Shown here: one piece after another, positions 6,408 to 61,229 of the stretch
How positions within the stretch are numbered: position 1 is the first letter of the stretch
How the letters are laid out: the number at the start of each line of letters is the position of its first letter
Source: Ustulina deusta
Taxonomy: Eukaryota; Ascomycota; Sordariomycetes; Xylariales; Xylariaceae
Length of the DNA stretch: 64,000 bases
Direction of reading: 5' to 3'
Assembly: GCA_023159155.1 (NCBI GenBank)
Contig: JAJNNX010000019.1
Coordinates: 558,001-622,000, forward strand
Notes under the pieces: model-generated
Told to the model about the DNA's origin: nothing
The model's input: only the letters and a program-made list of their open reading frames with translations
The model's database searches: none
Translations under genes and position numbers: made by a program

Positions 6408-6710
6408 TTAGACTTCTACATAATCAACGGGATTACCATGTACCTCTTCTGACATGAAGGCTAAAAAAGGCACACCAACAACTAACAACTGGGCCGCATT
6501 CATGTGGTCTTGTATTTGAAACTTATAGGCGGTTAGAATACCAATCACTGCTTGTAGGTCCCTCGTCAAATAGACCCCATTCTCATCCTCCACACTTAGT
6601 AGTGCTTGTATCTCAAAATGCTGGTCTTCATTTTCGAGATATCTAAGAGTCTTCAGGGTGCTTCTCCGCTGTGAACGGCTTCAATGGGGGAAAGCAAGCC
6701 TATCATCGAT
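6408..6710 (-). CDS. Unrecognised open frame, possibly a gene fragment
   Basis: On the minus strand an uninterrupted frame runs from just after a TGA near 6710 to the stop at 6408, about 100 codons. It contains segments such as VEDENGVYLTRDLQAVIGIL and AAQLLVVGVPFLAF, with fairly natural composition and hydrophobic patterning. It has no convincing ATG of its own near the 5' end (an internal start would give about 60 aa). It overlaps the first codons of the plus-strand broken gene at about 6655-6710. I do not recognise the family. It may be the last exon of a lost gene or a chance frame. Confidence 0.3.
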
Positions 6711-7505: not shown

Positions 7506-8057
7506 CACGTCATAGGATTCATATCAAGGGATTAGAAAAATTCGGAAACACACTTGGAGATTGTTGCATCGTCGGCCATGTAAACACAGCTTGGCCCTCA
7601 TCCCTTCCCCTTACACAAGACGCATTTAGACGAAACCTGGTTCTTTATTATATAAAATTAGAGACATTCAGTAATCACAGCAATAAAATAGACGACAGGT
7701 CTTAATACACATGATAGCTGAAGACCCCGTGTAGGGAGTTAGTGGTCTGTGATTTTGTAACTGAAACAGTATTCGGGTGAATCAAGATCCGTCAAATCTA
7801 AATTATTCCTTCTTACAGAAACAACTGTGCCAGGATATTTATCTCGATACGAATCAGACCTTCCATGTCACCGAAGCATATAATCTTCACTGGACAGTCT
7901 GCTACCTGTCACAGTTCAGACTGCTGGATGCTCCAGTATTGACTATGGTTATTGCACAAGGAGAAGAGCTGCTGTTTCAAATAGCCAGAATATGAATGCT
8001 CCCTTAGCAATTTCACCATTTTATCAACTAATAAACCCGGGGGGTGCGCAACTCGAC
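7506..8057. other. Intergenic stretch, nothing recognised
   Basis: Between the broken conserved gene and the 3' end of the SNF2 pseudogene. A short plus-strand frame at 7777-7995 lacks any feature I recognise and is probably chance. Confidence 0.45.
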
Positions 8058-9300
8058 TTACCTCCCAACGCCCTTCAGTAAGCGCCTCTTCTTACTTCTC
8101 CCCAGGGCCATGATCTGAAGACGACAGAGACTGGCTAATCAGCTTTATTTCCCTAGCCTGAACTCACTGAATGTACTACAGAGAAAAGGTGAGCATGGGG
8201 ACTACTCCCGCATAATGGCTGACAAGGTGGGAGGAACTTGGGGACAAACATCCGCATCACGTGTGTGGAAATGGCTCAGCGAAACGGGCTCACCTCCTCT
8301 ATGCTATCATTAACACAGTACCTCGTAATCTGGACATCTCGTGTCTGGCCAATCCGATAGACCCGATCCACCACCTGAGCCTCGGCCATGGGGTCCCAGT
8401 GCAGCTCAACAATGTGTGTCTCAGAGGCGACGGTGAGGTCGATGCTATGATGTAAGTGTTTTTCATTAGCGCGCGCTCCCTCTCTTTGTCTCTATAGATG
8501 TTGATACTGATCATAAAATGGCTTTAAATTGAACTTCTCCAGGGCACTGCGGCGTTGCTGGGATGTCGAAATTCCGTCAATGCGAACAAAGGAGAAGTCG
8601 AGGGACGATCATCAAGGTTGCCAAATTCCATTCGTTAAAACGAAGGCATACACATCGTGTCTCATTTAAATCCAGTAAGCCGATGTTAAATGAAGAACGA
8701 AGGATTATCTACCTCTATCAAAAACCTTTCGGTGCCGACCATTTCGCGTAAGCAGTGGATGAGTTGTTATAGGGATACGAGCTTAGTGTTGATTTCTATT
8801 GGCCCACCGGTTTTTCCGACTATATCTACTGCCATATCCAGGTGTAGAGAAAGCGCCACCCCCACGAATTTCCACTTCGTACTAAGGATAACAACGATAT
8901 GAAATGAGAATTGTCTCTCATGAGCCGCAACCAGTCCCCCAAAGCCATTCAATGGTTGCTACTATATTTGCCATTGTACTAACCTGGTAGACCTTTATGC
9001 GGAAGCCGACCCAACCACATTATGTCGTTTCATTACCTAAAATCATCGGACACATAGTACGCAGTCATGTCTTCAACATTCCATCTCCAGGAGCGCGTGC
9101 GTCTGAAAGGGGCTTGGTTACCAGATAGTCGTCATCATGTAAGAACAATGTTTAGTAAATGCCAAGTAACGAACCTGGAACAGCCCTAGGCATTGAAGTG
9201 GAATAACCCTTGAGGTCTTGGGTATATAAATAGCTTCAATCTGGCAGATTTCGTGCATTTTACGTCCTACTAAGCCTTTGGGAAGTAACCGGGTAATGGT
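8058..9300 (-). pseudogene. SNF2-family helicase pseudogene (Rad5/HLTF-like C-terminal part)
   Basis: Read on the minus strand, 8290-8450 encodes a near-perfect helicase C-terminal segment including WDPMAEAQVVDRVYRIGQTR, which holds SF2 motif VI (Q..DR..R.GQ), ending NDSIEE. Upstream, about 8520-8590 encodes FVRIDGISTSQQRRSALEKF, the preceding conserved block. Downstream, after a plausible GTGAGC...TGTAG intron, 8058-8206 reads YIQ-stop-VQAREIKLISQSLSSS and then a second in-frame stop. The stretch that should link the RIDG block to the IDLTVAS block is replaced by about 80 bp of garbled sequence. Farther upstream, fragments such as IPKTSRVIPLQ (about 9190-9240) and EVEIRGGGAFSTPGYG (about 8830-8880) fit the same protein in shifting frames. 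Stops, frameshifts and absence of the N-terminal helicase lobe show decay. A functional copy would be an ATP-dependent DNA translocase. Confidence 0.8.
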
Positions 9301-9743
9301 GTGTACTTTCGCTTTGATCGGGCGCAATGTACTCACTCAAGTGAGCAGTAGGAAATTTGACACGGATCATGTCCCTATCTAGTGGCATGAATGGAATTAT
9401 TGAGCATTTGGATAACCAAACCCTTGTAATTATCTAGGACGACCAGGCTTTCTTTCTCGAAGTACTTAAATTCACCGCGACTCATGTCTCCCTCGCTGAC
9501 ACTAACTAACCACGCGTGCGAGATATAAATACCATTTGATAATCTTATGAGACCAAGTTCTATACCTGTCTATCATGAGCAAAATTCCTCTATAATAGTG
9601 TTTCACCCAACAGCGAGTTCATGGGTTACCTCGTTGGAATATACTGATTGTATGATTAGCCTGCAACCAAGACTTATACGTTTCATACTCTGGAGCCGGC
9701 CGCATATCACCTCCATCAATTCTACATACGCATTTGTCAAGAG
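9301..9743. promoter_or_regulatory. Upstream region of the kinase gene
   Basis: About 440 bp between the SNF2 pseudogene and the kinase start. It may include the kinase promoter and undetected 5' remains of the pseudogene. A TATAAATA-like sequence lies at about 9524-9531. No other motif could be assigned. Confidence 0.35.
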
Positions 9744-11697
9744 ATGGCACTGCAGGTATCTCTAAGGGAACATCTCTTGAGCTTGGGCACGTCTGATTCA
9801 GACAAGCCGCAACCTGGAGGAGCAATTGACAGGGTAAAGACAGCTATACAAAATGCACGCTGTCTTAACAATGAGGGTAGTATATTCATTCCAAACAATA
9901 CATTGGAAAACCTACTCACACGCACCACTATTTGTGATGTCATTTCATCCATGGCCAACCTGTCCGCCCACGAGTTGGATCCTGAGCTAACAGCTCTCGT
10001 CGACGAAATCGACCCAAGGGATAAGAGAAACCTAAACGATTCCAGGAGACGGATCCTCGCTATACTTATCATGGGAGATATACCTAATTTGATCATCCAT
10101 TTCATCGACGCAGGCATAGGAGACAGGCATCTTCCTTTTGAATACCAGCATGACGGGCAGCTTGAGTACACCAAGGATGACGGGAGCCGAGCTGTCTGCC
10201 CATTTCGATGTTTCGATAATGATCCCAGCAAGTTGTACAATTTTGAAATATCTCAATGGGATTACATGGCTCCTGTATTCAGCTTCACGGAAGAGGAGGT
10301 ACACCATCACCAAATACAATATAGGATCCCCCTTCCCTTTACGGAAGACAATATTGTACCTACACAAGGAGGTAACAGTCAAGTACGCCAAGTTGTCATT
10401 CACCATGAGCATCACGACTTGGTAAGTTCATCCAGTTAGATTTCAAGGTTCATGCTAATTCCGCAACAAGACTGATGGAAACTCATTTGCTGTGAAACGG
10501 CTCCTATGCTCAACAGATGAAAATTTCAACAAAGAGGTCGAGGCTTTGAAGCTCGTCCGAAAACTTAGGCATCCGCATCTTATTGAGTTACTTGGAACAT
10601 TCCAGTACCGCCAATCTTATTACTTGATCTTTCGATGGGCCATTGATGACCTGCAGACGTTTTGGAAGAGCAATCCATCCTTCAATCCAGTCCCAACTAT
10701 GAGTCGCTGGGCCCTTCAACAATGTCTTGAGATAGCTAGAGGGCTACACTTGATCCACGGTGGACAATGCCCACCTCCAGAGCGATCCGGTCTCAGGGGT
10801 AGGCATGGAGATATCAAACCTGCTAATATCTTACGGTATGCCCCGAGAGCAGGATCCGAAGATTCCGAATGGGGAGTTCTGAAAATCTCGGATTTCGGCT
10901 TAACACGATTTTACGAGAACCATTCCTATCGGCGCGAATACATCAACGGTCCGCCGGCGACAAGGACCTATCGTTCACCAGAAGGCGATTTGCAACATGA
11001 GGTATCCTACTTGTGGGATATTTGGCCTTTGGGCTGCCTCTACCTGGAGTTTGTCACTTGGCTACTCCAAGGCTGGGATGGAGTGGTCGCATTTGCCGAG
11101 GAACGCGAACGCGAAGATCAATCGCGCGACCCGAGGTTGTACAAGGAGGACAAATTTTTCAACATAAATCCCCTGAAGATTTTTGGGGCCTGTCGGAAGA
11201 TTTCCGTTATCGACGTAAGATGCCCTTGCCAAAGTAAATGAGACAACGACTTACATCAAAACCAGCAGATCCGTGTGCTACATAGCCACCCAGAATGTAC
11301 AGAATTCATACACGACTTCCTTGATCTTATTTCAAAAGACCTGATTCGGATCCGAGACAGGAAGCGTGCTAAATGCGATCAAATCGTCCAGAAGCTAGAA
11401 GCCATGGGAAAGAAATGCGAGAATAACGAGGACTACTACACTAAACCACAGATACGACCCCTTAAAACACTAACATGCGAGTCCGACAAATCCTGTAACC
11501 CTACCGCTACAGTACCCAACGCCGGTCACATATCTGGTGAGAGCAGATCCAGCAGAAAGCCAGGGTCAAGCAGTGAGTCTGGGGCCGAAGAAAACTCCCC
11601 ATCAAGATTGAAGAACGAACACAAAGAAAGAAGATATCTCCGCAGCTTCTTGTATTTTGTAGGGTCTTGTTTTCACGGCGATGCCGTATATTCGTAA
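9744..11697 (+). CDS. Protein kinase-domain protein, three exons
   Basis: Exons 9744-10421, 10471-11214 and 11266-11697 give 617 aa; the introns are 49 and 51 bp, both phase 0. The N-terminal 220 residues lack a recognised catalytic motif. The kinase domain begins at the second exon: SFAVKRLL carries the VAIK-type lysine, EVEALKLVRKLRHPHLIELLG covers the helix-C and following region, GRHGDIKPANIL is the catalytic loop (HGD in place of HRD, with D, K and N kept), KISDFGLTRF is the DFG motif, TYRSPEG replaces APE, and LWDIWPLGCLYLEF is subdomain IX. The glycine-rich loop is not evident: VVIHHEHHDL precedes exon 2 instead. The tail of about 75 residues is Ser/Lys-rich and looks disordered. This architecture is frequent in Pezizomycotina; substrates are unknown. 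All key catalytic residues are present, so activity is plausible. The second acceptor could be 3 nt downstream (CAG|CAG). Confidence 0.88.
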
Positions 11698-12001
11698 TAT
11701 TGTAGAAAACAATACCTGGATATAGGTAGCCCATGTTTTCCTATTATGTTACGCAATCAATTTACTGTCCTGAACCTGCATCTTTGTACAAATCCTTAGC
11801 TTTCATGTACTTTATAGAATAGAGCTCCAAAACTATGCTACCTCAATACTAAAAATGCAAATCCTTACTAAATTTGTCCCTTAAAAACAGCGACAATAAG
11901 TGTTGATGTCAGGGATGTGCCTCGATACGGTCCCTCTACAGAACTAGTCACTTGGTGTTACTAGGTCTGATCGGAAGGTCTGTATTGAGTATGGTTGTAG
12001 A
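11698..12001. other. Transition from gene DNA to the A+T-rich domain
   Basis: About 300 bp holding the kinase 3' end and ordinary sequence up to the first base of the D-element LTR. No gene or repeat seen. Confidence 0.5.
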
Positions 12002-40743: not shown

Positions 40744-41011
40744 AAAAAAGGACAGGGCAACTCGACACTAAAAACAACTAAAAACAACAAAAACAAACTA
40801 AAGCGCCTACTACTAGAAAACTAGTATAAATTCTATACGTATGAAGTAAGTGTTGCTCTAAGAAGTTCGAAAGCTTTTATAGCTATTCGAACCCCCTAAA
40901 TACAGCCGAAGATCAGCCGATTCGGGCCACGGGCGGCCCAAATACAGCTAATAATTAACGTGCAGCCACATTCGCAGCTGCCAGCGGGCCGCTAGCACCA
41001 GCCCTACTACA
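40744..41011 (-). repeat. LTR of B, left copy
   Basis: Only lightly mutated. Includes the near-palindrome GGGCCACGGGCGGCCC at about 40,915-40,930. Confidence 0.88.
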
Positions 41012-41089
41012 AACTTCCCTTATTCGAAGCCTTATTCTCCAGATAGCTTCGAATCCAACTACAGAACTGAACGCACCAAAAAAAACAAC

Positions 41090-41185
41090 ACAACACAACA
41101 CCCACTCGAACCCCTAGGCCTCAACAGCCTAAAAAAAAAAAAACTAGCCCTAACCCACTAGGCCACCAAGCCCTTGATCAACCAA
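41090..41185 (-). repeat. tRNA-like Pol III promoter boxes inside B
   Basis: On the minus strand GGTGGCCTAGTGGGTTAG fits the A box of tRNA promoters, and about 40 bp later AGGGGTTCGAGTGGG fits the B box. A T tract and an AGGCTG...CAACAG-type segment lie between them. I cannot fold a functional cloverleaf, because the T-stem does not pair. It is therefore a tRNA-derived (SINE-like) segment or a relic, not an intact tRNA gene. Confidence 0.5.
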
Positions 41186-41199
41186 TTACTAAACCGGTC

Positions 41200-44100
41200 A
41201 CATATTCGTATAGACTTCCCTTAGTCCATAGCTCTTCCCTTAGTCCGTATGCCATATACCAAATGCCCTCTAGCTAGGTATACCCTCTAACATAACCCTT
41301 TCGGCATAACCCTTCAAATAACCCATTCCCTCGTAATCCTTCAACATATTCCTATATAAAACATATATAATTCTATCTAGACCTAACATATATAGCAGTA
41401 TTTACTAATATTTCGTATTTAAAACCTAAATAAATGCCACAGTTAGCCACTACTTCGAACCTAAGCTAAATCTTTATACAAAAAGTTACGCTATAGCCCT
41501 CACTACTTTCTATATATACAAATCTTTATATAACTATAATAACGTTTTTTAATAATATATATATAGGTTAAAATTCGTAAAATAAGCCCTAATCAGCTTT
41601 ATAAATAGACTTTTATAAATAATTCTAAAAATTATAAATATAAGCGTATCCCTATATAAATCAATATAGGTAGCTGCTTATATACAAAAAAAACTTATTA
41701 ATTAGCAATAATAATACAACAATAAAATAACTAATTAGCGCAGCAATAACAAATTAACTAATTAGTAGTATTACAATAGCTATATAATATATATAGTACA
41801 AACAAGTTCACATATAAAATAGTATAAAAAGCTATTCGTACATAACTAAATAACTAATTAGTACAGTAATAATAATTTATTAATATTATACTATATCTAT
41901 AGTAATAATAAACTAATTAGCAATATAACTAACTATATAATATATACTATAAGCAAGTTTATATATAAAATAATATAAAAAGTTACTTATATATAACAAA
42001 TTAACTAGTTAGTATAGCAATACTAATATAACTAACTAATTAACGCAGCAATAATACATTAACTAATTAGCAATGCTACGCTATATATATATTACTATAT
42101 ATATAAAGCATAAAACATATAAATCATATAAATATAAATAGATTACTATATAATTTATATAAACAATTGCTTATATATTTATAGCTTTTATATAAACTAA
42201 CTAATTAGCATAGCAAACAAATAAACTAATTAATATTGCTTTATATATAGCGCAAAATAGTATAGAGCTAATTAAAAAGCCTTTATATAAATAAATAATA
42301 TATATATAAACAAGTTTACATAAAAAACTATATATACGCCTGCTTATATTTAAATAAAACATAGTAAACTTGCTAATCAATAGTAAATATAACTAAAAAT
42401 TATATAAAACATAGTAAACTTGCTAATCAACGCATATATAACAAAATCGCTAATTAATAGCAAACATAATATTAATAAAAACATTTGTTTATATAAAACA
42501 ATATATAGGCTTACTTATACGCATATAAAACTAGTATAAACTTGCTAATTAACGTATATATAACAAAATCGCTAATCAATAACAAACAAAATATAACAAA
42601 TAAATATAAGCATACATATATATAAATTAATATAAGTGGCTGCTCGTACGCACATATATCAGCTAAATTGCTAATCAATCATATATATAACAGCTAAACT
42701 AGCTAATCGGCAGCGCATACATATAATACCTAAACTAGCTAACATATATATAACTAATCAACACATATATAGCTAAATTAGCCGATTAGCAGCGTAGCAG
42801 TCCAGCGATTAGCTAGCTAAACAATAGCTTCCCTTAGACCATAAATATAAAAGCATATTCGCATATAAATTATATAGAGATCTGCTTATATAGCCATTAA
42901 ATAAAAGATTTATTAGTATAGCTATTAAAACCAAGGGCTAAATAAAAAACTAACTAATTAACAATATAACAATTCGTTAATTAAAACCATAAATAAACGC
43001 TCCTTTATAAGCTATAAATATACTCTTATATAATTTAGGATATAAATATGTTTATACGCTACTAAACATAAACAGCCTAGCTAATTAATAATATAACTAT
43101 ATAATTAATAATACGTATAGCTAATCAGCAACATAAAAAGCAATATATAGTGCTAATACCGTAACAAAAATAACGCTTCCAAAATAAAGCTTCAAAAACA
43201 ATATCTAAACAGCACTTCCTTTAAACCGTACATATTTAAACTAACTCCCATATAAACTATATAAGCACTTGTTTATATAGCAATTCATATAAAAAAACTA
43301 GCTAATCAATAGTATAAAAGCTTTAAAACAACAAAAAACAATAAAAATACTAAATTTGCTAAAAACGCTAAAAATGTTAAAAACGCCAAAAATACCAAAA
43401 ATACTAAACAATAAAATTAACAAAAATAAAAGTATACGTATAACTAACAAAAACTTAGAACGGACCTTCCTATAAGCTATAGCACTACAAGCGTATTCAT
43501 ATATAAAATATATAAAGATTTATTTATAGAACTATTTATAACAAAAAATCTAGCTAACCGCTAATAAAACACTAACTAAACAAAAAACTAAACAAAAAAC
43601 TTTTTAAAGCAATAACTTCTTATAAATAATATGCATACAAGCAAGTTTACATATAAACTTATATAGCAACTTGTTCGTACAATATTTAAATATAAACTTA
43701 ACTAATTAACGCAGTAACAATAAACTAATTATAAACTAAAACAAAAGCTTCTCCAGTAGCTATATATCTATAAGCTAGTTCGCATAATAACTTGTATAAA
43801 ACTCAGCTCGTAAATATATTCAAATAAAGAACTCGTAAAATAACTAGCTAATTAACTAGCTAACTAATTAACTAATCGGCAGTTTAAAACAAAAAACTTC
43901 CTTTAAACTAAAAGGCATATAAGCATATTTATATATATAATAATATATAGATTTACTTAAACAACTTTTTAACAAAAAAACTAACTAGTTAACTAACTAA
44001 ACAACATAATAGCTAGCCAACAAAACCATAGGCCAATTAAGCTAATCAACACATATATAACTAGCTTAACTAACAAAGCCTAAAAAATAAAAACAATTAG

Positions 44101-44800
44101 CTAATCAATATATCATACATATAATATATAAATAAAAATATATTTATATATAAATTTATATAGCAAACTGCTTAAACATATATATAAATATATAAACTAA
44201 CTAATTAATATAAAATTAGGCTAAATTAGCTAATTAACATATATAGCTAGCCTAGCTAACTAGAATAGCCACCTAAAAGCTTCCCTAGACTCAAATAGCT
44301 ACAAGCAAAGTTATATATAAAATTATATAGCAGGTTATTTATAAATATATTGTAGCAAAAAACTTAGCAATTAATATATATAACTAAAGTAGCAAAACTA
44401 ATCAACACGTATAGACAATTAGCTTAGTTAATCGTACAAGCTAAGCTTTATATAGCTAACAAACTAAGCTTCCCTAAAAAATATACAGTTATAAACAGAC
44501 TTATATATAGATTTATATAAAAAACTGCTTATAAATATATTTATATAAAAAATTAGCTATTTATAGGTTAGCTAATCAACTAACTAACTAATCGGCTATA
44601 TATTAGCTAAGTTAGCTAGGTTAGTTTTCGCATAGCTAGCATTAAGTTTATTAATAAGTTATAAACATATTTATATAGTAATTTATATAAAAAAGCATTA
44701 AATATTAATCTCTGATTATAAATCATATTTTAAAAAATAATAAATATTTATAAGTATTATTATATATAAATTTATATAAAAGACTGCTTTATTATAGCTT
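41200..44800. repeat. Degenerate motif array filling the interior of B
   Basis: Modules recur at irregular spacing: (1) CTTCCCTTAGACC-like, at about 41,207, 41,228, 42,827, 43,214, 43,465, 43,616, 43,747, 43,897, 44,279 and 44,469; (2) a following GCATATTCGCATATAAA..TATATAG..CTGCTTATATA block; (3) dozens of CTAATTAGC / CTAATCAAC octamer-like motifs. Base composition differs from neighbouring RIP DNA: C and CpA are common on the top strand while G is scarce. Nothing is coding. Confidence 0.7.
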
Positions 44801-44816
44801 TACTAAAAATATTATT

Positions 44817-45084
44817 AAAAAAAAACAAGGCAACTTAACACTAAAAACAACTAAAAATAACAAAAATAAACTAAAGCGCTTACTATTAAAAAACTAGTAT
44901 AAATTCTATACATATAAAGTAAATGTTGCTCTAAGAAGTTCGAAAGCTTTTATAGCTATTCGAACCCTTTAAATACAGCCAAAGATCAGCCGATTCGGGC
45001 CGCGGGCGGCCCAAATACGGCTAATAATTGACGTGCAGCCACATTCGCAGCTGCTAGCAGGCCACTAGCACCAGCCCTGCTGCA
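44817..45084 (-). repeat. LTR of B, right copy
   Basis: 268 bp, the same length as the left copy. The left third is RIP-mutated; the right part is preserved and ends CAGCCCTGCTGCA. Confidence 0.88.
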
Positions 45085-45089
45085 TTAGT

Positions 45090-48000
45090 AATATTTTAAA
45101 TAAGTTAGTTAAAATATTTTAGGTATAGTAATTTAAAGTAATAATACTAAAATAAGCTAATTATATAATAGCTTTAATATTAAAGCAAAGTATTAGTTTT
45201 ATTTATTAATAATTAAAAGTATAAATAAAATATAATAAATATATAGTTTATATATTAATAAATAAAGTTTAAAAACTAGTAGTATAAAGTATATTAATTA
45301 GAAAATAAGTGGTTAAAAGCTAAATATAAGGTCTACTAAGCTAATATAAGTCTAGTTAGTTTATATTACTTTTTTATAGAGATTTTATTAGTTCTTTTTT
45401 AATATAAATTATTATTAAAAAAAAGTGCTAATTAGGGCTTCCTTACTTATATTATTTTATAAAAAATAATATTTATTAGTTTTATATAAATTAGTTGTTT
45501 TTTTTTAACTTACTTACTTATTTTTTTATATAAACTATATTTATACTTATACTTTTTTATATTTTTAATTTTATTTATTTAATTTATAATAATTAGTTTA
45601 TATATAATATATTATAATATATATTTATATTTTTTATTATTTTTTATAATATTTAATAATTAGTTATTTTAAAGCAAAAAGTATATATTAGCTTTTTTTG
45701 GTTGTTTTTGTTTGCTATATAATTATTATTTTTATATTAACTATATTAAATATTATATAAATATATTTATGTTTGGTTAGATTACTAATAAGCAATTAAA
45801 ATTTTAAGCTTTAATTGTTTTATAAATTAATTTAAAAGTTCAAATAATCTAAAAAAAAACAAATATTATTAATCAAAATATATTTAAAGCTTTTATATTA
45901 ACTAACCTATTGCTATATATATTAAATTTTATATATTATTTTTAGCTATACTATTTTATTACTAATAAGTTTAACGTTTAATTTTTTTTTTTTTTAATTA
46001 TAAAGATTTTTTATTTTAAGCTAGTTTATATAATTCTAATTTTTTATTACAATTAATCAAAAAAAAACTAAGTTATAAAAAAAGCTTTAATAGTTCAATA
46101 TTAATTAAAATAGTATATATTAGAGCTAATAAATATTTTAATTAAGCGAATTAATATATAAATTATATTTTTAAAATAATTATTATATTGTTTTTTTTAT
46201 TATTTAGTACTAGATTATAATATATTATATATTTTTAGTTAAGATTTAATATAACTTTAATAATTTTAGCTATATTTTTTTTAAACATATATTTTTTGGA
46301 GCTATAGTTTTAAAACATATAGTATTACTAAAAGATTTTAATAAGCTAATAGAGCTATATACTATTTAAAAAAAAACTTTTAAATATAGTTAAAATAAAT
46401 ATTATAACTTTTTTAATTAGTATAAATAAGTAAGCTTTATATTTTTTTTTTAATTTTTATATATAGCTAATAAAAATATTTAATAGCAATTACTAGATTT
46501 TTTATTATTTTATTATTAAAGTTTTAAATAGCTATACTACTAGTTAATATATATACTAGAATATTTATTTTTTATTTTTTATAATATTTAATAATAAAGC
46601 TATATTTAAAACAATTATAATGTTTGCTAATAAGTTTATATTTTTTTATATTAAGCTATACTATAGTAGTCTATTTAGCAAATATTTTTTATAATGTTTA
46701 ATTGCTTAGTATAAATAATAATATTTGCTATTTAATTAATTAGGATTTTTAATTTTATTTTTTGCTAGTTATATATTTGTTAATTTTAAGAGTTTAAAAG
46801 TAATAGTTGCTTTAGAATATAGCTATTTTTTAAATATAGGTTAACAAATCTTTTATAGTCTAGTATTTGTAGTAATTGCGTTTATTTAGTTAGCTAGCTG
46901 GACTGCAAGCATTATATAAGTAATATTAAGTATGTTTATTTGTATATAGTGGCAACCTAAAAAAATAGAAATAAAGATCTAAATAAATAGAATAGCCCAA
47001 GGAAGTTTTTAATTTAGGCTGATTAAATAGAGATTATTATATGCTATTTTATATATTTTTTGGTTGATCTGCCTATAGGGCGGTAGTAAGGTTGCTGTTT
47101 TGGAGCAGGTTCCTAGGGGCGAAAGTATAAATAGCAGGTATTATTTTATAGTAGATCTGAATTAATTAGGATAATATTGTTATAGTATGTAGTGCTAGAT
47201 TTATAGATTTTAGTTATATTTATTTTTCTAGTTTTTAAATTTAAAAAAATATTGCTTGCTAATTAATAGATTTTTTTTTTAATTATAAATTATTAAAGCT
47301 TAAATACCTAGTTTTTAAGCTTGTTTTAATTAGGATTTTAATTCAATATAATAAAGCTTTATTACTAATAATATTTTAATTTTTTTTAACTGTTTTGTTT
47401 ATATTTTAGTATTTTTAGCTTGTCTAGGCTATGTTATAGTTTATTTAAGCTTATTTTAGCTATATTTTAGTTATGTTTAGTTATGTTCTAGGTTTTGTTT
47501 GGCCTTTGTCTAGTTATATTGTGGCCCTAATTAGGGCTATCCTAGCTATATCTATATCTTTTTTATAATAGTTGTTCTTTAGTAAGCCTATTATTTATTT
47601 ATTAGTAGTAAAATTAACTAGTTTTTAATATTTAGTTTTATTTTTAATAAATAGTTATAAGCTGTCTAATATATAAGTTTTTATTTTTATATGTTTTTTT
47701 AGCTTTTTTATTTTATATTTTTTATTTTTTTCTTTAAATATTATAAAAAATGGGCTTTTTTATTTGTATAAAAGTTTAGCGCTTCAAAATTTATTGTTGT
47801 TTAATAGAGTATTAAACATAAAAACAAGGTTTTTTTTTTTAAAGCTATAGGGTAGACCTTATAAGCATATTGCTAATTAGCCTATTTTATAGTTTAATAT
47901 TTTTTTTTAGTAATAATACGTTAGACCTTAGCTATATTTTTTTTTTTTAAATTATTATATTTTATATACTAAAAAAATATATATAATTAAAAATATTTTA

Positions 48001-51000
48001 TTAATTAATAATCTATTATATTAAAATAACGTTTTTAATTAATAAAACTAATAATTAGCTATAAACTATTTTATATATATTATAGCTATAATATTAAGTA
48101 ATAGTTTTATTAGCTTAGATTATTTTATTAAATTGTTTAGTTTAGCCTTTTTTTATTTTTTAAGTTATTTTTTTAAAACTATTAATAACTACTTTATAGC
48201 CTAACTTAATAAATCTTTAGCTTTAGGGGTAATATATTATATTATAAATTATTATAAATCTAAGTTATATTTTAGCTATTATAACTTTTTTTTTATTTTT
48301 AGAACTATTATTATATTTAATTTTAATAAAAATATTATACTAATAAATAATATATTATTTAATAAATCAAGCAATATTTTTAAAATTAGCTAATTAAAGT
48401 AGTATTATTTTAAAATAAACTAATATTTTATATTTAGCTTTAATAATTGTTTTAAACTTGTTATTATTAAATATAAATTAAATATTAAAAATTTAGTTTA
48501 TAAATATATTTTTAGCTTTATTATAATAATATTTTTTTTTAGATTGCTTGTCCTATATTTACTAATATAACTTATAGCTTTTTAAAACATTTTTAATATT
48601 TTTATATAAGTTTTTTTAGTAATATTAGGCAGTAATTCTATAATATATAAAATTCTAGCTTTAATATTCTAGTTATATATAGTTTTTTTTAAAAAAACAT
48701 TTTTAATTATTAAAATTATTAATATAATATTAGATCTAATATAATAGTTTTGTTTTTTTTTAAAAGTAATTTTTATAGATTTTTTTTTATATTACTATTA
48801 TAAAACAATTAAGTAAACTTTTAGTAGTAAGATATATTGCTAGTTTTTATAAATATATTAACTATTTTTGCTTTAGTTTTAAAAAAGCAGTAGTATTTAA
48901 AATAATTATTAGTTTAATTATTATAATATAAAATTAAAAATTAATAAAAAAAATCTTTTTTTTTTATTAATTATTTAATTTATTTAATAGTTTTTTTAGT
49001 TTATATAATAATCCGTTTATTATTATATGTTTTTTTTTAAAAACATAATACAATTTAAAATTAAATATTTTAATAAAAACAACCTATTAGGTTAGAACTG
49101 CACAAAATAATATAAAAAATTTATTATTTAGTTAAATAATTAATATTTTTATATTTATTTTTAAATAAAATTTAATCTTATATAAATAATTTTATAATTA
49201 GCAAAAAGCTTTAATAACCTTTAGGTTTTTTTTAATTTTTTAATTTATATTTAAACAAATATATTTTATTTTTAATTAATTAATAAAATATAACGCTTTA
49301 TTTTTTCTTTAAAGCATTAATTTTTAGCTAGATTTTTTTAGTTTTATAATTTAAAGTAATTAAATAAAAAATAATTATTAAAACTTATTATAATATTATT
49401 ATTCCTTGTTTTTAATTATTTCCCTAAATAAACTTAATATTATACTAAAAAAATATAGTTAGTAAAAATATTATTATAACATATATTTTTATTTATGTTT
49501 AATAATAACTATTTATTTTTAAAAAAGTTTTTATTTTTATAATATTGTTATATACTATTTATTTTAAAATTTTAAATATTTTAGCTTTTATAGGTTTATA
49601 GCTATTAGTTCTATAAAAATATTTGATTAATATTACTATTAGTTTATATTATTTGTTTTTAATACTATTTATAGTAATATTTACTAATTTAAAATTTAAT
49701 AAAATTATATTAATATTTTTAATATGTTTAAAAATAAATTGCTATATATTAAAAATAACTTTTTAATTATTATAACAAATAATAAGTTTTTTAATTTTTA
49801 TATTATTAAAAAATAGTTTATATTTTTTAAATATAATATTATATATTATTTAGCTAACTATTTTAAAAAAATAAACTACTAAATTTGTTATACTTTAAGG
49901 AAGTATTATTATTTATAGAATTCCAAGTAGTATAAAAAAAACTATTAGTGCTTAATTAAAAAAAATAAAAATATTTAATTATATTTAAAAAAAAAGTTAA
50001 TTATTAATAAGATTTTATATATAACAAATTTTTTAATAAATTTGTTATAGTTTTTTAATAAAAAAGTATTTTAAATTATAACTATGTTTAGTTTAGTAAT
50101 AAAGTTAATTAGTTTAAGTTTTTTATTTTTTATTTTTATTATAAACTATATATTTTAATATATGCTATGTTTTTTTTTAATATATTATTTATAAGTTAAG
50201 TTTTAAATATATTTAGTATTTTTTTTTGTAGTAGTATAAAAATAAAGATTTTTTTTGTTTATTAAGCTTTATATAGTATTATCTAGATTTTGTATAGTAG
50301 TACAATTTTATTACGTATTTTTTTGATTTTATTAAAATTTTAAGCTAAAACTATTTTATATTTATATAGCATTTTAATTAGAAGCTTTTTTTTTAATTAG
50401 TAAGTTTTAATATTTTTATATTTTTTTTTATTTTTTAGAAGCGTTTTTTAGTTAATTAAGTTTTTTTAGGTTATATAACAAAATATAAGTAAATATTTAA
50501 ATAAATCTTTTTTTTTTTAAATATTTTATTTAGTTTATATTAATTATATATTTTTATTAGAGTTTTCTTTTTAATTAATTAATTTTAGAAGTATAGAACT
50601 ATTATATTTTATATTATTAATTAAGTAAACTTTTTTTAATTTAGGTTTATATATTATAAATATTAAAATAAAAAAAATAAAAAAATATTGTTTATTTAGC
50701 TTTTAAGATTTTTATTTTTTTTGTTTTTTTTATAGTTTTATAAATAATAGTTTTAAAAATTGTTAAAAAATTTATTATTTAATAAAGTATTTATAAAAAA
50801 ATATTATTGTTTAGTTTTAGTATTTAGTTTATATAGTTTATAAGTAGCTAATTAGTATTATAAAAATGTTTTTATATAATTTTATTATTTAAGTTTAGTA
50901 CTAAATTAAAAATCATTTTAGTAATATATAATAAAAATAAAATTTAAATATTAATTAAAGATTAATTATAGCTATTTATAGCAGCTTTTTATATATAAAT

Positions 51001-54000
51001 AGCTATTAGTTTTTTATAGCTTTAATTATTAATTTGTTATAAAAATATATTTTATATAAGCAAGGTTATAAAAGTAATAATATATATATTACTAAAAGTA
51101 AATATAGCTATTAGAACTAAATTCTTAAAGTAAAAAATATAATTTGTAATTTTTAAAAAGTTTATTTTTAGAAACAAAAAAGTAGTTATTTTTTAATTTA
51201 GAACTATATATATAAGAATAGCCTATATATACTTTTTAGTAATTTATATTAGCTAAATAACAATTTTTTTATATAATTATAGGAGTACTTTTAATTTAGT
51301 AAAATATTTATTTTAAGTTATTTAAGTATTAATTATAAAAAATTGTTTATTTTTAATATAATTTTTTATTAAAATATATAATTAAGCGCTAGTATTAAGA
51401 AGTCCAATAATTAGTAAGCTTTTTAGTAATTCTTTAATTTTTACTATAATTTTAAGTATAGTTTTTATATAGTTTTTTATATTCTATAAAAATATATTTG
51501 TTTAGAAAGTTTTATAGATTTTTTTTATAAATTTTTGTAGTATTATATATATATTATTGATTTCTAAAATAAGTACGTCCAGTATTTATTAATTATTTTC
51601 TTTAAACTTAAGTTTATTTAGTTAATTTAATTTAATTGTTTTTTTGCTTAATATTTGTCCTATTTTAAAGGCTTATACTACAAATAATTCTAATATATTA
51701 GGGAATAAACCTAGTAGTTCTTTTTAAATTAACCCTATTTTAGCTTTAAATAAGTTATTAATTTTATTAAAAAATATTTAGCGTTTTTTTATTTTTAAAA
51801 TAAGTAAAAGTACTTACTAATTAGTGCTTATATTTATTATAGCACTAGTTATTTTATAAAATTAAGTAATATTATAAGTTTTAAGCGTAATATTATTTTT
51901 TTTATTTAAGTATTTTTTTGTTATTATTATAGCTTTTGTATAAATTTATATATTAAATATATTAATAAAGTCCGGAACTATAAGTATTAATAAGTTATTT
52001 AAAAAAACAATTCGATTAATTGTTTTTAATACTATAAATCTTTGCCTATTTTAATATTTTTACTATTTATTATATTAGAATTTTAAGTAATTTTTTTTAA
52101 CTTAAATATTAAGCTTTTGTTATTTTATAAAAACTGAATTAGTTTGGAATTTTATTCTAAAGTTAAGCTAATTAGTTATAATTAGTTATTTAAATATTAA
52201 AACAAGTAATTAAGCTAGGTTATTTAAAGTATTTTTATTTTTGCTAAGTTTTAAGTTTTATAATTAGGTTTTGTTTTTAAAATTTGGATTTTTTAAAACA
52301 TAATTAAATTTATATAAAGTTTTATAAGCTACTAGAGCTACTAAAAAATATTTATTAGAATAGTTACAATAAATCTATATTAAAGCTAAAAATATAAATT
52401 CTTTTTTTTTTTTTAATATTTTATTTAGGTTAATTATAAATAAGCAAATATACTAAAATATATATAATAAACTAATATATTAAGCTTTAAAATTATATTT
52501 TTTATATAAAGCTTTAAAATTTTTTTTTTTTTTTAATTTATAGCTTTATTATATATAATTTTTAGTTTTATAAAACTAATATTTATATAAATTATTACTA
52601 ATGCTTCTAGAGTTATTTTAGCTACTTAATTAGTTATATTTTTAAAAGTTTAATTGTTATATTTAAGTAATAAAAGTTTTAAATTAATTATTTTTATATT
52701 ATTACTTATTTTACTAATTGATTTTTTAGTAAAACATTTAATTAAAAAAAATATAGTATTAATTTTGGTTAATTAGTAATTATATTATTTTAGTTATTAC
52801 TTTAATTATTTAAATATTATAAATAGAAAGGTTTTTTATTTTAGTTATTAATTATTTAATTACTAAGTTTATATATATATAGATTATTAGAAATATAATA
52901 AAAAAGGTAGTTATAAATAGCTAGGTTATAAAAATAACTAATAAAGCTTAGAATAGTTATATTTATATATTTTGCTAAATAAAATAAAGAGGTATGTTTA
53001 GTAATAGTTTTAAGCTAGTAGTATTATTTAAAAAATTTAATATTATTGTTTATAACTAAAAAAAAAATTCTAAGTTAGTTTATTGTTTAAAAATATTTAT
53101 AATATTAATATATTTTTTTTGTTATAAGTTATTTTTAATAATTTTATATTTATTAAAAATAATTTTAAAATAATTAAAAAGGATTAATTCGATTAAATTA
53201 TATAAATAAGATTTTTTAAGTATTAAAAAGATTTTTTAGTTAAGTTTATTAATTAAAACTATATATTTAAAAAAAAATTAAGCATAATTTTAAAAAATTA
53301 TTTTAGTATTTAAAAAAAACTTAATAAGTTATTTTTTTTATAATTAAGTTTATTTAAGATTAATTATTTTATATTTTTGTTTTAAATTTATAATAGTTTA
53401 ATTTTAATTAATATAAAAACTAATAATATATTAAATTATATATTTTTTAATTATAGTTTTTATTTAATATAATAATTAATTAATTTATTTAGTTTATAAA
53501 AGTTTATATAGTTTAAAAAGTTTTTTTATTTTATAAAATTATTTAGTTATATTTTTTTTATTAAATTAGTTTTAAAAACAAAATATAAAATTAAAAATAA
53601 ATAAACTAATAATATATAAAACTATAGTATTTTTAAAAACTAATTATATAAATATTAAAAGTTTAGTTAGCTAATATTTATTAGTTTAATTATTAGTTAA
53701 TATAGTATTAAAAATAAATATATTTATAATTAGAATATTTAAAATAAACTTTATTAAAAAAAGCTTAAAGTTTTATAGTTGTTTTAAAATATTTAAGTTG
53801 TTTATTTTAGGTTATTAATTAGAACTATTAATATATAAAAATAATAAAATAATAAATGTTTTAAAAATAAAATAATAGTTTTTAAGTTTTAATAATATTT
53901 TTTTATTTAATATTTTATAGTTTTTATTGCTATATAAATATATATAATTAGCGTAATATTTTTATAAGTTTTTTATTAAAAGTTTATATATATTTAAGTT

Positions 54001-54377
54001 TAATAAATATATTAGTTTTTTTAATATAATTATAGTTAAGTTTTATGTTTTTTTTGCAGATTTAATAAAAATAATATAATACTATTAATATTTTTATAAT
54101 TAGTTGTTCTAAAAATAATAATTTTATTAATACTTTATATTTATTTAATTTTTATTATAATTAGTTTTTTATTATTTTTATATTATATTATTAAATTATA
54201 TTAAAAGTTTAGCTTTATATAAAAATTTATTAAAAAAAATATACTTAATTAGTATAATTAATAGTTAGTTTTTATATATTAGATATATTAACTAAAAATA
54301 TTAGTTTTTAATCGTAAGTTATGCTCCGAAAAACATTAAATAATATTGATTTTTATTATTTTATTAAAAATACTAAT
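45090..54377. other. Interior of element A, right segment
   Basis: About 9.3 kb, T-rich on the top strand, stops in every frame. Mild G+C islands lie at about 46,980-47,110 (CTATAGGGCGGTAG, GGTTCCTAGGGGCGAAAG) and 47,490-47,560. No domain recognised; additional undetected nested repeats are likely. Confidence 0.45.
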
Positions 54378-54741
54378 AAAATAAAGCAAAGCTTTTAATT
54401 AATATATCGTATACTTAAACTAACTAAACCTATTTAATTTTTTTATATTATATTATATTTTTTAGCTTGCAAATTTTTATATATATTAAGTTAAGATTTA
54501 ATTTATAATTATAAATAAAAATACAATAATTAATTAATAAAAACAAACTTTTTAATTTTTATTTAATATTTTATAATAATTATTTATTATTTATTATTTA
54601 AAAAAAGAAGTTTTTTGTAGCTTTAAATAAAAACACGCGCTTCTTATATTTCTTGTTTTATAATTTTTGAGGTCTCTAAGAATATGTTCTATTTTATGAC
54701 TAAGGACCTGTCTTTTGTACGCGCGCACCAGCCCTACTACA
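54378..54741 (-). repeat. LTR of A, right copy
   Basis: The mirror image of the left copy in mutation pattern: the first 250 bp are mutated, while the outer 100 bp (ending GCGCGCACCAGCCCTACTAC then A) are nearly intact. Confidence 0.85.
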
Positions 54742-54746
54742 TTAGT

Positions 54747-57347
54747 AGTTATTTAAACTATAGATTTTAATATATATATTAAAAATATATATTAAAAAAA
54801 GCATAGTATTTAAATATTTTATAATAATAGCAAATATAATTAATAATTTAAAACTAAAAATACTAATTAAAATAAAATTTATATTAAAATATAAAATTAA
54901 AATTAACTTTATAAAAAAAACATATATTTTTAAGTTAGTACTAGAACTAAAAATATAAAATAAAACAAAAACTAAGCTATTTTTAATAATATTAATCTAA
55001 AAATATTAGTAATATATATAATAATTATATTTGCTATAATAATAATATTTGTAAATATAAGGTTTCTTAATTTGCTAATACTTATTAATAAAAAAAATAG
55101 AATAGCAAAGCTATACTACTTTAAAAAAAATATAGTTTATAATATAATACTAAACAGATATTTATTAAAAACGGTTATAGTTTATAACCTATATATTTAG
55201 CTAATTATAATATAAAAAAATAAAAAACTAAGAACTATTTTTAAATATTAAAAAAACAAAATTGCTTAAATTATTAACTAGGCAAACATTATAAACCACT
55301 AAAAAAATAATATAAACTAAAAAAACTAAACTAAAATAATAATATATTTAAATAAAAAAAAAGTTTAAAAAGTATATATATTTTTTATAAAAAAACAAAT
55401 AAGCAATTTAATTATATTAGTTATAAAAATAAGCATATTATTTTATAAAATAATAAAACTAATAAATATATTTATAATTAGATTAATAGCTAAAATAGCT
55501 ATAATAACAAATAATATATTATAAATAAAAAAGATCTATAAACTATTTAATAAATATAATATTTATATTAAATAATTAAAAAATATAAATAAACTTAATA
55601 AATAAATTATAAAATTAGTTTAAAACTATTAAAGCATATTTATTAATTATTAAAAATTATACGTTTTTTAATATTAAATATAATAAAATATATATTTAAA
55701 AAAAACTTATATTTATAAATAAACTTACTTTAGTTGCTTGCTTTATTTTTATTATTTAAAAAATAATTAATAGTACTGAAAAAGATTAACTAGTAGTAAA
55801 TCTATAACTATTAAACAAGATTATAATACTAAATATATATTTACTATTTAATTAAAATAATATAATTAAAAATATAATTAGTAAAGTTTAGTTTATATTA
55901 TTTAATATATTAAGCTTTTTTTTTAACTACTAATATATTTTAAATATTATAATAAAATAGTTATTATTAGCTTTTAAAGCTTTAAAAAATTAAACATAAT
56001 ATTAATAAAATTTAAAAATTTATTAATATATATATAAAAGTTTATAAACTGTTTGTTTTTTATATATTATATTTTTATATAAACTTATATTAATAATATA
56101 ATTATTTTTAGTAATAATTTTAATATTTATATAAAATATATAAAAATAATAATAAATATTTTTAATAAAGCAAAAGTTTATATTAGCGTTTTAAAAAAAA
56201 ATTTGTTTTTTTGTTAGTATAGCTATTAAACTATAATATTAATAATAAAAACATTACTAAAACAAATAATAAAATTAAAATATTTAAAAAACTAAAAATA
56301 TATATTAAAATAGCTAGTTAGCTATACTATAAAATAGCTTGGTTTGATTATAAGATTAAAGTATTGCAATAAAAAACCCCCGATTTAATAATCTAGACAA
56401 AAAAAAAAAACTTACTTATTAGAAAGTCTAAACTAACAAAACAAAGCTTTATTTCTAAAGTTATTTTTAAGTTAATAAAAAAAAAATGCTAAAAAGCGTT
56501 ATAAGAATATTTATATATATAATATATTATTTATTACTATAAACTAAATAAGCTTTTTTTTTTTAAATAAATATTTATAAAAAAGCTTATAAATTAATAG
56601 TTTTTTAACTAAAAAACAAATAAAATAATATATTAATATTAAACTAAAATATTTTAATAATTAAAGTTAAACTAATTATATTTTTATTTAAACTTACTAA
56701 TAATATTAAAAAAAAATAATAGCAGTAATTTAAATATATAAAAAGCTATAAAAAATAATCTAATTAAATATATAACTAATAAATATATTAATAAACTATA
56801 TATTAATCAAAAAAATAGTAATATATATTTTATTATATATTATAAATTTAAATAAAATTAATCTAAAACTTGTTAATATAACTAATTATTTTTTTAATTT
56901 TAGCTTAAAATTTATTATATATTAAAAATACTAAATATAATACTAAATATATTTTTTAAATTATTATAAAAGCTAAAAAAATAAATTAAGTATACTAAAT
57001 AATATTTAAAAAAATAACATTTATTAAGCATACTTTGCTAAAAAAAACAAATTTATAACAAACTTTTTTATATTAACTTTAATAATTAGTAATAAGTTTA
57101 AAAAAAATAACCTAAAGATATAAGAGCAATACTAGATATAGCTAAATAAAAAATATTTTATTTTAAAAAAAAGCAAAAAAAAAAAAAAAACCTAAACAAC
57201 TTTGCTGCTAAACTAACTAAATACTAAAAAAGCATAATAGCTTTTTTTTTGTTTAATAATAATTTTTTTTTATATTAGCTATAATAAAAAATAATTTTTA
57301 TATATTCTAAAAAACTATATTAAAAATATTTTTAAATTTATATATTA
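54747..57347. other. A-rich segment, probably C interior
   Basis: RIP-mutated, A-rich on the top strand, with no readable domain. A small less-mutated patch lies at about 56,340-56,395. Confidence 0.45.
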
Positions 57348-57607
57348 TTGTTTGAATGGAATGTACTGCATATTTCCAAGGCAGCAGTACATGCCTGCAA
57401 GGTTGGTGGAATACAGTCTATTCACTATATGCCACACTCCAAGGAAGGGAGAGAAAGGAAGGAAATGGGGAGGTGGGAGCCCCCTATATACCCCTTCGTA
57501 CGAAGGGGTCTGTGGGTGGTCCCTAGTCGGACCCCTTGGCCTAGACCCCCCTTGGTTAGACCCCTTCGTACGAAGGGGTCCATAATTGCGTACGATTAAT
57601 CCAACAA
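57348..57607. mobile_element. MITE-like 260-bp palindrome-rich element, not RIP-mutated
   Basis: This is a sharply bounded G+C-rich insert in RIP DNA. Ends are TTGTTTGAATGG and, inverted, TTGTTGGATTAAT, forming imperfect terminal inverted repeats; TTA occurs on both sides (57,345-57,347 and 57,608-57,610), the 3-bp TWA target duplication typical of PIF/Harbinger transposons. Inside are a hairpin (ATGTACTGC at 57,361 with its complement at 57,384-57,392) and two perfect palindromes, 57,490-57,509 and 57,559-57,580, both containing CCCCTTCGTACGAAGGGG. Overlapping open frames here arise from the palindromes and are not genes. It is too short for transposase, hence non-autonomous. Confidence 0.75.
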
Positions 57608-57610
57608 TTA

Positions 57611-60600
57611 TAAACATTACTACTTTAATATAAAATATATACTATATAACTTATAAAATATTTTTTTAAATAAATATTAAAATATATACTAGTTTATAAC
57701 CTATTATATAATATATAAAAAAAACTAAATTAATAAACAACTATTACTAGAAAAATTAATATTAATTAAAATATTAGTTATTTTTTATTATATTATTACT
57801 ATAGATTTTATTATAAATATACTATTAGTAAGATCTATAAAAAAAATTTAAAACATAAAAAAATATAACTATTTTAATATATTAGTAATTATATTATATA
57901 AAGCTAATAAAAAATTGCTTTTAATACTAAAATATAAAAAATATATAATAAAAAACTAAGCAAAAATATTATTATAAATATTATATTTATATAATTAAAG
58001 ATTACTAGTAGTTATTATTAGTAATAAAAACTTAAAGTTTATTAGCAAAATTTAAAAAAAAATCTATAATATATTAAATATTAAACTTTTTTTTAATAGC
58101 TTATTATTTTTAAATAGATAAGCTTTTAAAAAAAAAACTAAGTTATTAAAATAACTATTAGGTTTTATATAGCTATTAATTTAAATATTTTTTAAACTAA
58201 ATTATTACTAGTATTATAATACTACTTAAATAATATATTATTAGTAATAGTTAAAAGATTACTAAACTAACTAGTACTAAAATTTTAGCTATAATTTATT
58301 ATAAATATTCTAAATTAAAAAAAAAGCACTAAAACTAGTAATAAAGCAATAAAAATATTAAAAATAAAATATGCTTAAAAAGCTAAATATTTTATTAATA
58401 TAACTAATATAATTACTAAAAAAAATATAACAATAAATATATTTTAATAAATTTTAATAAAAGTAATATAATTTATTTTAAATTATATAAAAGTTATTAC
58501 TTATTTAATAAATTTAAATAAAAATAATTATTAATAAAAGTAAAACTTTTTAAAATTATTAAAAAAATGAAGCTACTAGTATATAAATTTGATTTTTTTA
58601 ATAGTTAGTATATTTATTTTATAGTTTTAGTTATATAGCTTTATAAACTTAAATAAAAAAAAAGACCTTTTTAATAAAAAAGTCTTTTTATTAGGCCTAA
58701 TTATTATTAAAAGGACTAAAGATTACTAAAAATTAAAAGAATTACTTAAAAAAAATCTAATTTTTAAATAACAAACCTTTGTTTAAATATATTATTAAAT
58801 AAATAAAAATAAAATACCAAATATACCTAAAACTTTAATAAAAAAAAACTAAAACTATTAATATTTAATTTAATTAATAAATATAAAGCTAATAATATTA
58901 TTAATCAAATAAAAGAATATAAGAAGCACAACATTACTTATATATATAAAAAACTTATTAAAATAACTAAACTAAAAAATAAAACAAAAAAAACATATAT
59001 AAAGCAATAAATATATTATATTTATTTTAAAAAACTTTTATTTTTTTAAAAATTATAAATTAACCGTATATACTAATACAAAATATATTATACTTATTAT
59101 AACTATTTTATTTTTTAAAAAACTATATTAAAAATAATAAATATATAGCTATAAATAAAATATATACTACTAAGCTTAGTTATTATAATAATAATAAAAG
59201 AACTACTATAAAAATAATATATAAATAGCTAAAAAAAAAGATGTATTGCTATAGCTACTTATTACAAAATAAACAGTAGTACTTTTTTTATATATTTAGG
59301 GGCGTTTTTCTAAATAATAAAATATATTTACTATTAAATATATCTACTATAAACTAATATAGCTATAATAAAAAGAACAAGGTATAAAGTTATATATTAG
59401 TTTATTTATATAAATAGGCCTTGCTTTTTTTATTTTTTTTACTGCTTTTTTTTTTTATAAAATTTAAAAAATTTTATTTTGTTATACTTAATATTAGATC
59501 TACAAAAATACTAATTATTATAGTAACTATATTAAACTTAATAAATCAGCTACTAGTTTAGAATTAGCTCTAGTATAATAATAATATTATTTTTTTATTT
59601 AATAGCTATAATAAAAACAATATTATGTTTAATAAAACAATATAAATGCTATAGCTATTAATAGATATAATATTTCTGCTAATTAAAGATTTAATATTTT
59701 TGCTAACTAAGGATCTAATATTCCTACTATTTAAAGCACTAATATAAACCTTAGTAATAATAATAATAATAATAATAATAAATAGGTTATATTTATTATA
59801 ATATATAATAATAGTAAAAATAATAAAGATATTAAAAAAACTGCTAAACTTATTAATTTAGTATAAGCAACTAAAAAAAAAATTTAAGGTTTTTAGATTA
59901 TATTATAAAAAAAAAAAATTTGCTGTAGCTAAAAAAATTATTAAACGTAATATTATTTTTATTAAAAATAGTACTTAAAAAAAAGATATTATACTAGAAA
60001 AAATCTATTAGGATAAAAAGAATAGTAAAAATACTAAAAATAATAAATTAAGTATTAAAAGTAAAAAATAGCTAATTATTATTATTAGATTGTTTAAAAA
60101 TAGTAATAATAATAATAATAATAAAAATAATAATAATATTTTTAATTACTTATTTAATTTTAATAAAGGCAAATTTTATATAGTATTATATAGTTATAAA
60201 AAATAAATATTATATAATAGTAATAATTTAAAAAATAATATTTGTAGCAAAAGAAAAGCTAGAAGTAATAATTAATAAAATATTTATAATAGGTTTAATA
60301 GTAGCTTAGCAATATTTAAAAAACCGCGCAGCAAAACAAATAATTTTAATAAAACTATTGCTTGTTTTAATAATAAAATAAATAAGTTTAACTTTTTTTA
60401 TAATTTAGTTATTAAAAAGCTTATTAAACTATTTAATAAAAATAATAAAAGATTTTTTATAGCTAATAGTTTTATATAAAACTTTAAAACTAAACATATA
60501 AATATTATAAAAACTAAAAATTAAAAAAAAGTATAAAATTTTTTATTTTTTAATAAAGCTAGTATTTTAGTTTTTAGGTTTATATTTTTAAATAATAGTT

Positions 60601-61229
60601 TTAACTTAATAATTATAAAACAACTAATAAAGCTTAACTAAACAAACTTAATATAAATTAAATCTAATTATAAAAAACTATAAATAACTTTAATAAATTT
60701 ATTACTTAGTTTTATATTTATTTAAAAAAAAATATTAATAATTTTAAAAAAAAATATTATAAAAAAATTAATTTAAACATTATATAAAATAAGCTTAACA
60801 ATTTAAAAGTTAAATTTAAATAATAAAACAAAGCTATTATTAAGCTAGCTATTTAAATTGATAAGCTTAATTTTAATAATAATAAAATAACTAGAAAAGT
60901 TAATATTATTAGATTTTAATTATAAAAGGCTATATATACTACTAAAATATATAAAAAAACGTTAAAAATACTTTTAAACAAATAATAAAAGTGCTTAATA
61001 ACTATAAAAGTATTTTTAATAATTATAAAGATATTTTTAATAAAATAAAGCAAAGCTTTATTAAGTTAGATAAAATTATAAAAATAATAAAAAAATATAA
61101 AAACTAGGAAAATAAAAAAAAAATTATTACGTGTTATATAATAAAAAAAATTAAGAATATTAAATTATAAAAAATATTTATAATTTGGGACAAATAGCTT
61201 TATTTAAAAGAAAGAGCACTTAATAAGCA
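57611..61229. other. A-rich segment, probably C interior
   Basis: About 3.6 kb, RIP-mutated. Contains TAA-type microsatellites at about 59,755-59,783 and 60,104-60,140. No gene readable. Confidence 0.45.
59755..59783. repeat. (TAA)n microsatellite
   Basis: About nine to ten uninterrupted TAA units. Confidence 0.85.

Follow-up and report, generated by a model that had tools for sequence, protein, structure and literature searches.

A probable RIP-spared solo LTR of a miniature GalEa-type retrotransposon in Ustulina deusta

TRIM elements form arrays in which LTRs are shared, and the minimum repeat length for RIP is known mainly from Neurospora crosses. For Neurospora, a RIP limit of 380 bp was given by Watters and colleagues (1999), as cited in PMC4646964. 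In Podospora, RIP hits the LTRs of full crapaud and grenouille copies but few of their solo LTRs, and small size was proposed as the cause (PMC10787394). In the fungal GalEa elements of the Copia type, a Conserved Hairpin Site composed of CHSeq1 and CHSeq2, with a published spacing of 12–41 nt, replaces the primer-binding site, and how these elements initiate reverse transcription is described as not yet explained (PMC5445492).

The window analysed here is the whole 64,000-nt stretch at positions 558,001 to 622,000 of contig JAJNNX010000019.1 of U. deusta. One kinase encoded in it has its best match in Nemania abortiva (72% over 100%), a single gene that points perhaps to Xylariales. Segment 57349–57606 of the window is likely the solo LTR of a non-autonomous GalEa (Copia)-type retrotransposon and would have stayed intact through being too short for RIP. 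This intact-looking patch of 258 bp is probably the leftover end of a retrotransposon without protein genes and not a small DNA transposon. It is identified as a solo LTR from other copies, in which this sequence occurs at both ends of a short internal region as a direct repeat. In the minus-strand reading, the element runs from TGTTGGATTAATCG to ATTCAAACA (TGTT...AACA) within an exact 5-bp target-site duplication, ATTAT, at 57344–57348 and 57607–57611. Its GC content is 0.51, as compared with 0.11 and 0.09 in the 500-bp flanks, and is the highest among 10 islands found in the AT-rich block. The first-pass annotation was right to see a palindrome-rich mobile element spared by RIP: the sequence is present in many copies and shows little or no RIP decay. 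The element it delimited is real, except that it measures 258 bp and not 260 bp (57348..57607), and the duplication that it gave as TTA is the 5-bp ATTAT. In the surrounding AT-rich block (46001–61000), the residual G+C is enriched in GpC, at 5.0 times expectation versus 0.97 in window positions 1–12000. The plus strand of window 41001–45000 holds 641 C versus 322 G and 1831 A versus 1206 T, a strand-asymmetric decay that suggests heavier mutation of one strand; the GC skew of 41001–42000 is −0.45.

Copies were collected by two genome searches, one with the intact LTR (40 scored out of 176 candidates) and one with a longer LTR variant (40 scored out of 134). The merged loci gave 65 segments, 41 of which are one LTR without internal sequence. 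Because the intact LTR served as the query and the candidates were scored in part, this collection is biased towards undecayed copies and covers part of the family. Three more palindrome sites (L087, L088 and L089) are likewise solo LTRs, making 44 in total. The solo termini are TGTTGG...CAAACA in 43 copies and TGTTGG...TAAACA in one. Exact 5-bp duplications border 41 of the 44, with an expectation of 1.45 under shuffled pairing; one of the remaining three has a duplication pair with a one-base difference, and two have no duplication. The solo copies show the TG...CA ends of LTRs and, at 5 bp, a duplication within the 4–6 bp range of such elements. The first-pass annotation had named the lack of a TTA duplication as grounds for refuting the MITE reading, and this was the outcome, with duplications of 5 bp. 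A MITE-like DNA transposon (Harbinger or other) bearing palindromes would agree with a short, multicopy sequence that has imperfect inverted ends and no long ORF. It is nevertheless highly improbable, given target duplications of 5 bp and direct-repeat units that carry an internal region, the GalEa hairpin site and a purine tract; a Harbinger/PIF MITE in particular needs a 3-bp TTA/TAA duplication and is ruled out by the exact 5-bp duplications. The imperfect terminal inverted repeats noted earlier, TGTTTGAAT and TGTTGGATT, are present, but they are the short inverted ends of the LTR.

Insert-free sites were matched across the junction for 32 of the 44 solo LTRs, 21 of these with no more than two gaps; among the 12 solos with no such match, L087 and L089 had joined flanks below the 150-bp limit. 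For the window copy, the empty sites are S49 (87%, 499 columns, 19 gaps) and S7 (83%, 493 columns, 37 gaps). The empty-site comparison, as well as the GC and LTR-pair comparisons below, covers LTR matches of at least 130 aligned bases.

An internal region, for which a further search scored 40 out of 57 candidates, is present in 24 of the 65 segments. These are mostly LTR-internal-LTR units, and three are arrays that share a middle LTR. In order, a full unit comprises an LTR, the hairpin site, a leader, a minisatellite of variable length, a purine tract and a second LTR. The internal region measures 436 bp in the reference copy and is longer where the minisatellite is expanded (unit of approximately 65–68 bp; one locus). 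Exact 5-bp duplications flank 10 of the 15 full units with both ends found; five lack an exact duplication, two of them by one mismatch, and in six other units the ends were not both found. In the 24 printed junctions, an A/G-rich tract lies approximately 7 nt ahead of TGTTGG or its RIP-altered form, in the position of a polypurine tract. The leader does not start with TGG in the junctions seen. By eye, the LTR contains no complement to the leader start, and Tf1-like self-priming was rejected on this ground.

Directly behind the LTR, the hairpin-site motif YTAATTART, with a CAAATTAG-like partner 42 nt further on, was found by script in 24 of 25 junctions. The 25th junction belongs to S27, which was misoriented in the scripts for the solo GC, empty-site, LTR-pair and junction analyses, and its hairpin-site motifs are present by eye. 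CHSeq1, of the CTAATTAGT or CTGATCAGT type right behind the 5′ LTR, is present in RIP-tolerant form in 24 of 25 junctions; CTAATTAGT is exact in eight of the 25 and RIP-altered in the others. A CHSeq2-like sequence with an A/A mismatch was likewise found in 24 of 25, at a spacing of 42 nt where the published range is 12–41 nt. A hairpin fold was predicted for all three copies tried, and for two of the three once flanking sequence was added. The family resembles fungal GalEa elements in its TGT...CA LTRs (138–311 bp in the published elements), its 5-bp duplication, the CHSeq1 after the LTR, the CHSeq2-like partner with the A/A mismatch and the hairpin fold (PMC5445492). In contrast to GalEa, it has no gag-pol, its internal region of approximately 0.4–1.7 kb compares with GalEa elements of 5.4–7.0 kb, its hairpin spacer is 42 nt instead of 12–41 nt and its internal region contains a minisatellite (PMC5445492).

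A large gag-pol ORF with a GalEa-type reverse transcriptase was sought in one internal region, that of L033, where there is no long ORF and the longest measures 73 aa. The family is therefore a non-autonomous GalEa derivative or a look-alike and not an autonomous GalEa element, and a reverse transcriptase (RT) phylogeny is impossible on the family itself. The label of a GalEa derivative is based on the hairpin site and on LTR ends, LTR length and a 5-bp duplication in the GalEa range, with gag-pol missing; judged from these sequence features, the family is a non-autonomous, TRIM-like GalEa derivative. Similar to TRIM, it has short LTR-internal-LTR units without coding capacity and arrays with shared LTRs. 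It differs from TRIM in its GalEa hairpin site, in place of a recognised tRNA primer site, in its long variable minisatellite, and in that most copies seen are solo LTRs or RIP-decayed. Limited literature searches, with subscription papers mostly outside them, returned no miniature GalEa element, and the form is new as far as these searches show.

A mobilising partner with this LTR was sought in the genome with PF00665, PF07727 and PF00078, and none was identified. The search for the integrase core (PF00665), for which the control was positive in 6 of 14 named genomes, prokaryotes, gave no candidate. Copia reverse transcriptase (PF07727) gave 103 matches, with at least one in-frame stop in every match listed (fewest: one TAG). 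PF00078 gave 56 matches, some of them with open frames of 881–1293 aa without stops. Such stop-free frames lie on C40, C49, C113, C65 and C30; stops interrupt many of the other RT matches, and some retroelements of this genome look intact or recent.

The minus-strand orientation of the window element follows from the purine tract, the TATA box and the CT tract, which also led to rejection of a plus-strand reading. In this orientation, the LTR consists of two palindromes, the TATA-box-like TATATAGG, a CT tract and R-U5. The putative U3 (promoter part) would occupy 57440–57606 and the putative R-U5 (91 nt) 57349–57439, on the basis of the 91-nt inverted R-U5 piece in L039 described below. Palindrome P1 (GACCCCTTCGTACGAAGGGGTC, 22 bp) lies at 57559–57580 and palindrome P2 (ACCCCTTCGTACGAAGGGGT, 20 bp) at 57490–57509, where it shares the first base of the TATA-like motif at 57483–57490 (minus strand), whose function is putative. 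The pyrimidine-rich tract at 57441–57479 (minus strand) lies between the TATA box and the predicted start site, and we take it to have a promoter role from what is general in fungal promoters. Both palindromes are perfect and have a common core, as first annotated, and the additional 9-bp hairpin, ATGTACTGC at 57361–57369 with GCAGTACAT at 57384–57392, was also recovered, its arms lying in the putative R-U5.

A search of the 56-Mb assembly found the 18-bp core CCCCTTCGTACGAAGGGG exactly at 92 sites and its reversed control at none. Among solo LTR matches of at least 225 aligned bases, a 20-bp core of P1 is perfect in 37 of 41 and P2 in 35 of 41, the latter in three symmetric versions (20, 9 and 6 copies). 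These versions are found in both LTR length classes, so they can be explained by recombination without repeated compensation. For this reason, and since P2 could have arisen as a copy of P1, no independent compensatory evolution is claimed for the palindromes. Most likely, they would serve the U3 promoter as binding sites for a dimeric protein. The fold predicted for the LTR strand, which pairs P1 with P2 in one long stem, and the three perfect symmetric versions of P2 would also suit RNA hairpins acting in dimerisation, packaging or export within the 3′ U3 of the transcript. We regard such hairpins as rather unlikely in place of DNA-binding sites, since P2 adjoins the TATA-like motif in the fashion of a promoter site and recombination suffices for its versions. 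Both L087 and L089 have lost P2 and the TATA box between CCACCT repeats, and L088 lacks the P1–P2 interval; the palindromes may have promoted these deletions.

Transcription would start near window 57439 on the minus strand, driven by a U3 promoter that contains the two palindromes and the TATA box. A GalEa enzyme would then copy and integrate the unit in trans, and recombination of the two LTRs would give rise to a solo LTR. One aberrant copy, L039 (1399–2590 on C32), bears on the first of these steps. In this full unit, an inverted R-U5 of 91 nt, TGTTTGAATGG...CCACACTC, forms the left end. The inverted R-U5 joins the end of U5 via a shared ACACTC, which is followed by the hairpin site, the internal region and the 3′ LTR, and an exact TTTAG duplication is present at both outer sides. 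The junction was found once in a search allowing three mismatches, and two other matches were read as ordinary LTR ends. L039 looks like a minus-strand strong-stop cDNA trapped in an insertion, as a single copy for which misassembly is possible, and a copy of this kind is new as far as limited searches show. Such a reading would place the cap near window 57439, 44–51 nt past the TATA box.

The solo LTRs examined are intact, with a GC content of 0.47–0.55 (41 copies). For decayed LTRs, 40 matches were scored out of 162 candidates. An internal match lies within 300 bp of 34 of the 40 decayed-LTR matches and of 5 of the 40 intact-LTR matches (Fisher p = 5e-11, with 60 of the 85 internal matches used). 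The six exceptions among the decayed-LTR matches comprise two with an internal match within 400 bp and four, at C48:608511, C91:749001, C2:264301 and C71:143649, with none detected near, which may be decayed solos.

A usable LTR pair was available in 19 of the 24 segments with an internal region, the others being S1, S27, S30, S43 and S44. In all 19 pairs, the 5′ LTR has more C-to-T-type changes than the last LTR, with 513 versus 82 transitions and 17 transversions; in S30, compared separately, the changes number 8 and 2 respectively. Similarly, GC content is lower in the first LTR in 18 of the 19 pairs; the one pair that deviates is that of S10, where the last LTR is partial. In the three arrays, S10, S26 and S48, the last LTR is the least decayed. 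Relative to the first LTR, decay of the middle one is stronger, about equal or somewhat weaker, respectively. Decay by context in the 19 pairs was 200/399 for CpA, 193/595 for CpT, 50/163 for CpG and 70/741 for CpC. The low decay of CpC means that the C-rich arms of the palindromes are poor RIP targets in any case. This 5′/3′ polarity of RIP is strong, and it is new as far as limited searches show: a RIP difference between 5′ and 3′ LTRs was not found in the literature searched, with subscription papers mostly outside. Both crapaud and grenouille resemble the present family in that solo LTRs are mostly spared and the LTRs of full copies are hit, so RIP-free solo LTRs are already published and that part is not new; they are different LTR families in a different host, and no 5′/3′ difference is reported in section 11 of that study (PMC10787394).

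A length threshold of RIP best explains the intact solos, the decayed full copies and the stronger decay of the 5′ LTR. RIP would need an unbroken shared stretch, and a solo LTR of approximately 260 bp would be too short to be scored as a duplication, leaving it intact, whereas full copies of approximately 1 kb and more would be mutated. Within these, the 5′ LTR would form an unbroken shared block of approximately 480 bp with the leader and decay heavily. The last LTR and the end of the internal region would form a block of approximately 330 bp, limited to this length because the minisatellite varies in length between copies, and would decay less. Full copies are most AT-rich in the stretch behind the 5′ LTR (mean GC 0.25, n = 19). 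This would also be expected if the polarity arose because a longer, heavily mutated element shares homology with the 5′ LTR and leader, and not because the minisatellite breaks the homology. That origin seems improbable: a 30-base RIP-tolerant pattern for the LTR end and hairpin site gave 20 matches, every one of them on or next to internal matches of the family, and among these 20 no longer element sharing the pattern was seen.

Late insertion and a size below the RIP length were both offered in the first-pass annotation as routes of escape, and each has some support. The window LTR fits an insertion into already decayed, AT-rich DNA, since the 41 exact duplications contain 9% G+C (19 of 205 letters), like the flanks, and of the 44 copies just one other has a duplication pair that differs, at a single G/A position; the case is weaker if some cytosines were kept context-dependently. 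These duplications would also suit solos that are intact through youth, or through LTR-LTR recombination before RIP of the parent copy, and not through length, and early recombination is named as one option by Westerberg and colleagues (PMC10787394). We consider this somewhat unlikely, for it leaves the graded decay inside full copies unexplained. Also, divergence from the window copy reaches approximately 10% among the solos over the aligned part, so not all of them come from one very recent burst. Under the preferred length threshold, the LTR series of approximately 260, 330 and 480 bp would bracket the limit; that it does so, that the minisatellite shields the repeat and that L039 is a strong-stop cDNA is, as a combined statement, tentative and less likely than not.

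The object in the window is of an ordinary kind, a RIP-escaping solo LTR, and its family is an unusual one, a miniature GalEa element. For annotation, the lesson is that GC-rich islands within RIP deserts are not necessarily genes or MITEs. A non-coding derivative that keeps the GalEa hairpin site suggests which parts suffice for mobilisation. If the reading of L039 is true, the ends of this copy show that reverse transcription begins exactly at the border between the LTR and the GalEa hairpin, and they also mark the RNA cap site; they would bear on how GalEa elements are primed without a tRNA site. Finally, the presence of short solo, long full and minisatellite-split forms in one family would allow the RIP threshold to be read from a single genome.
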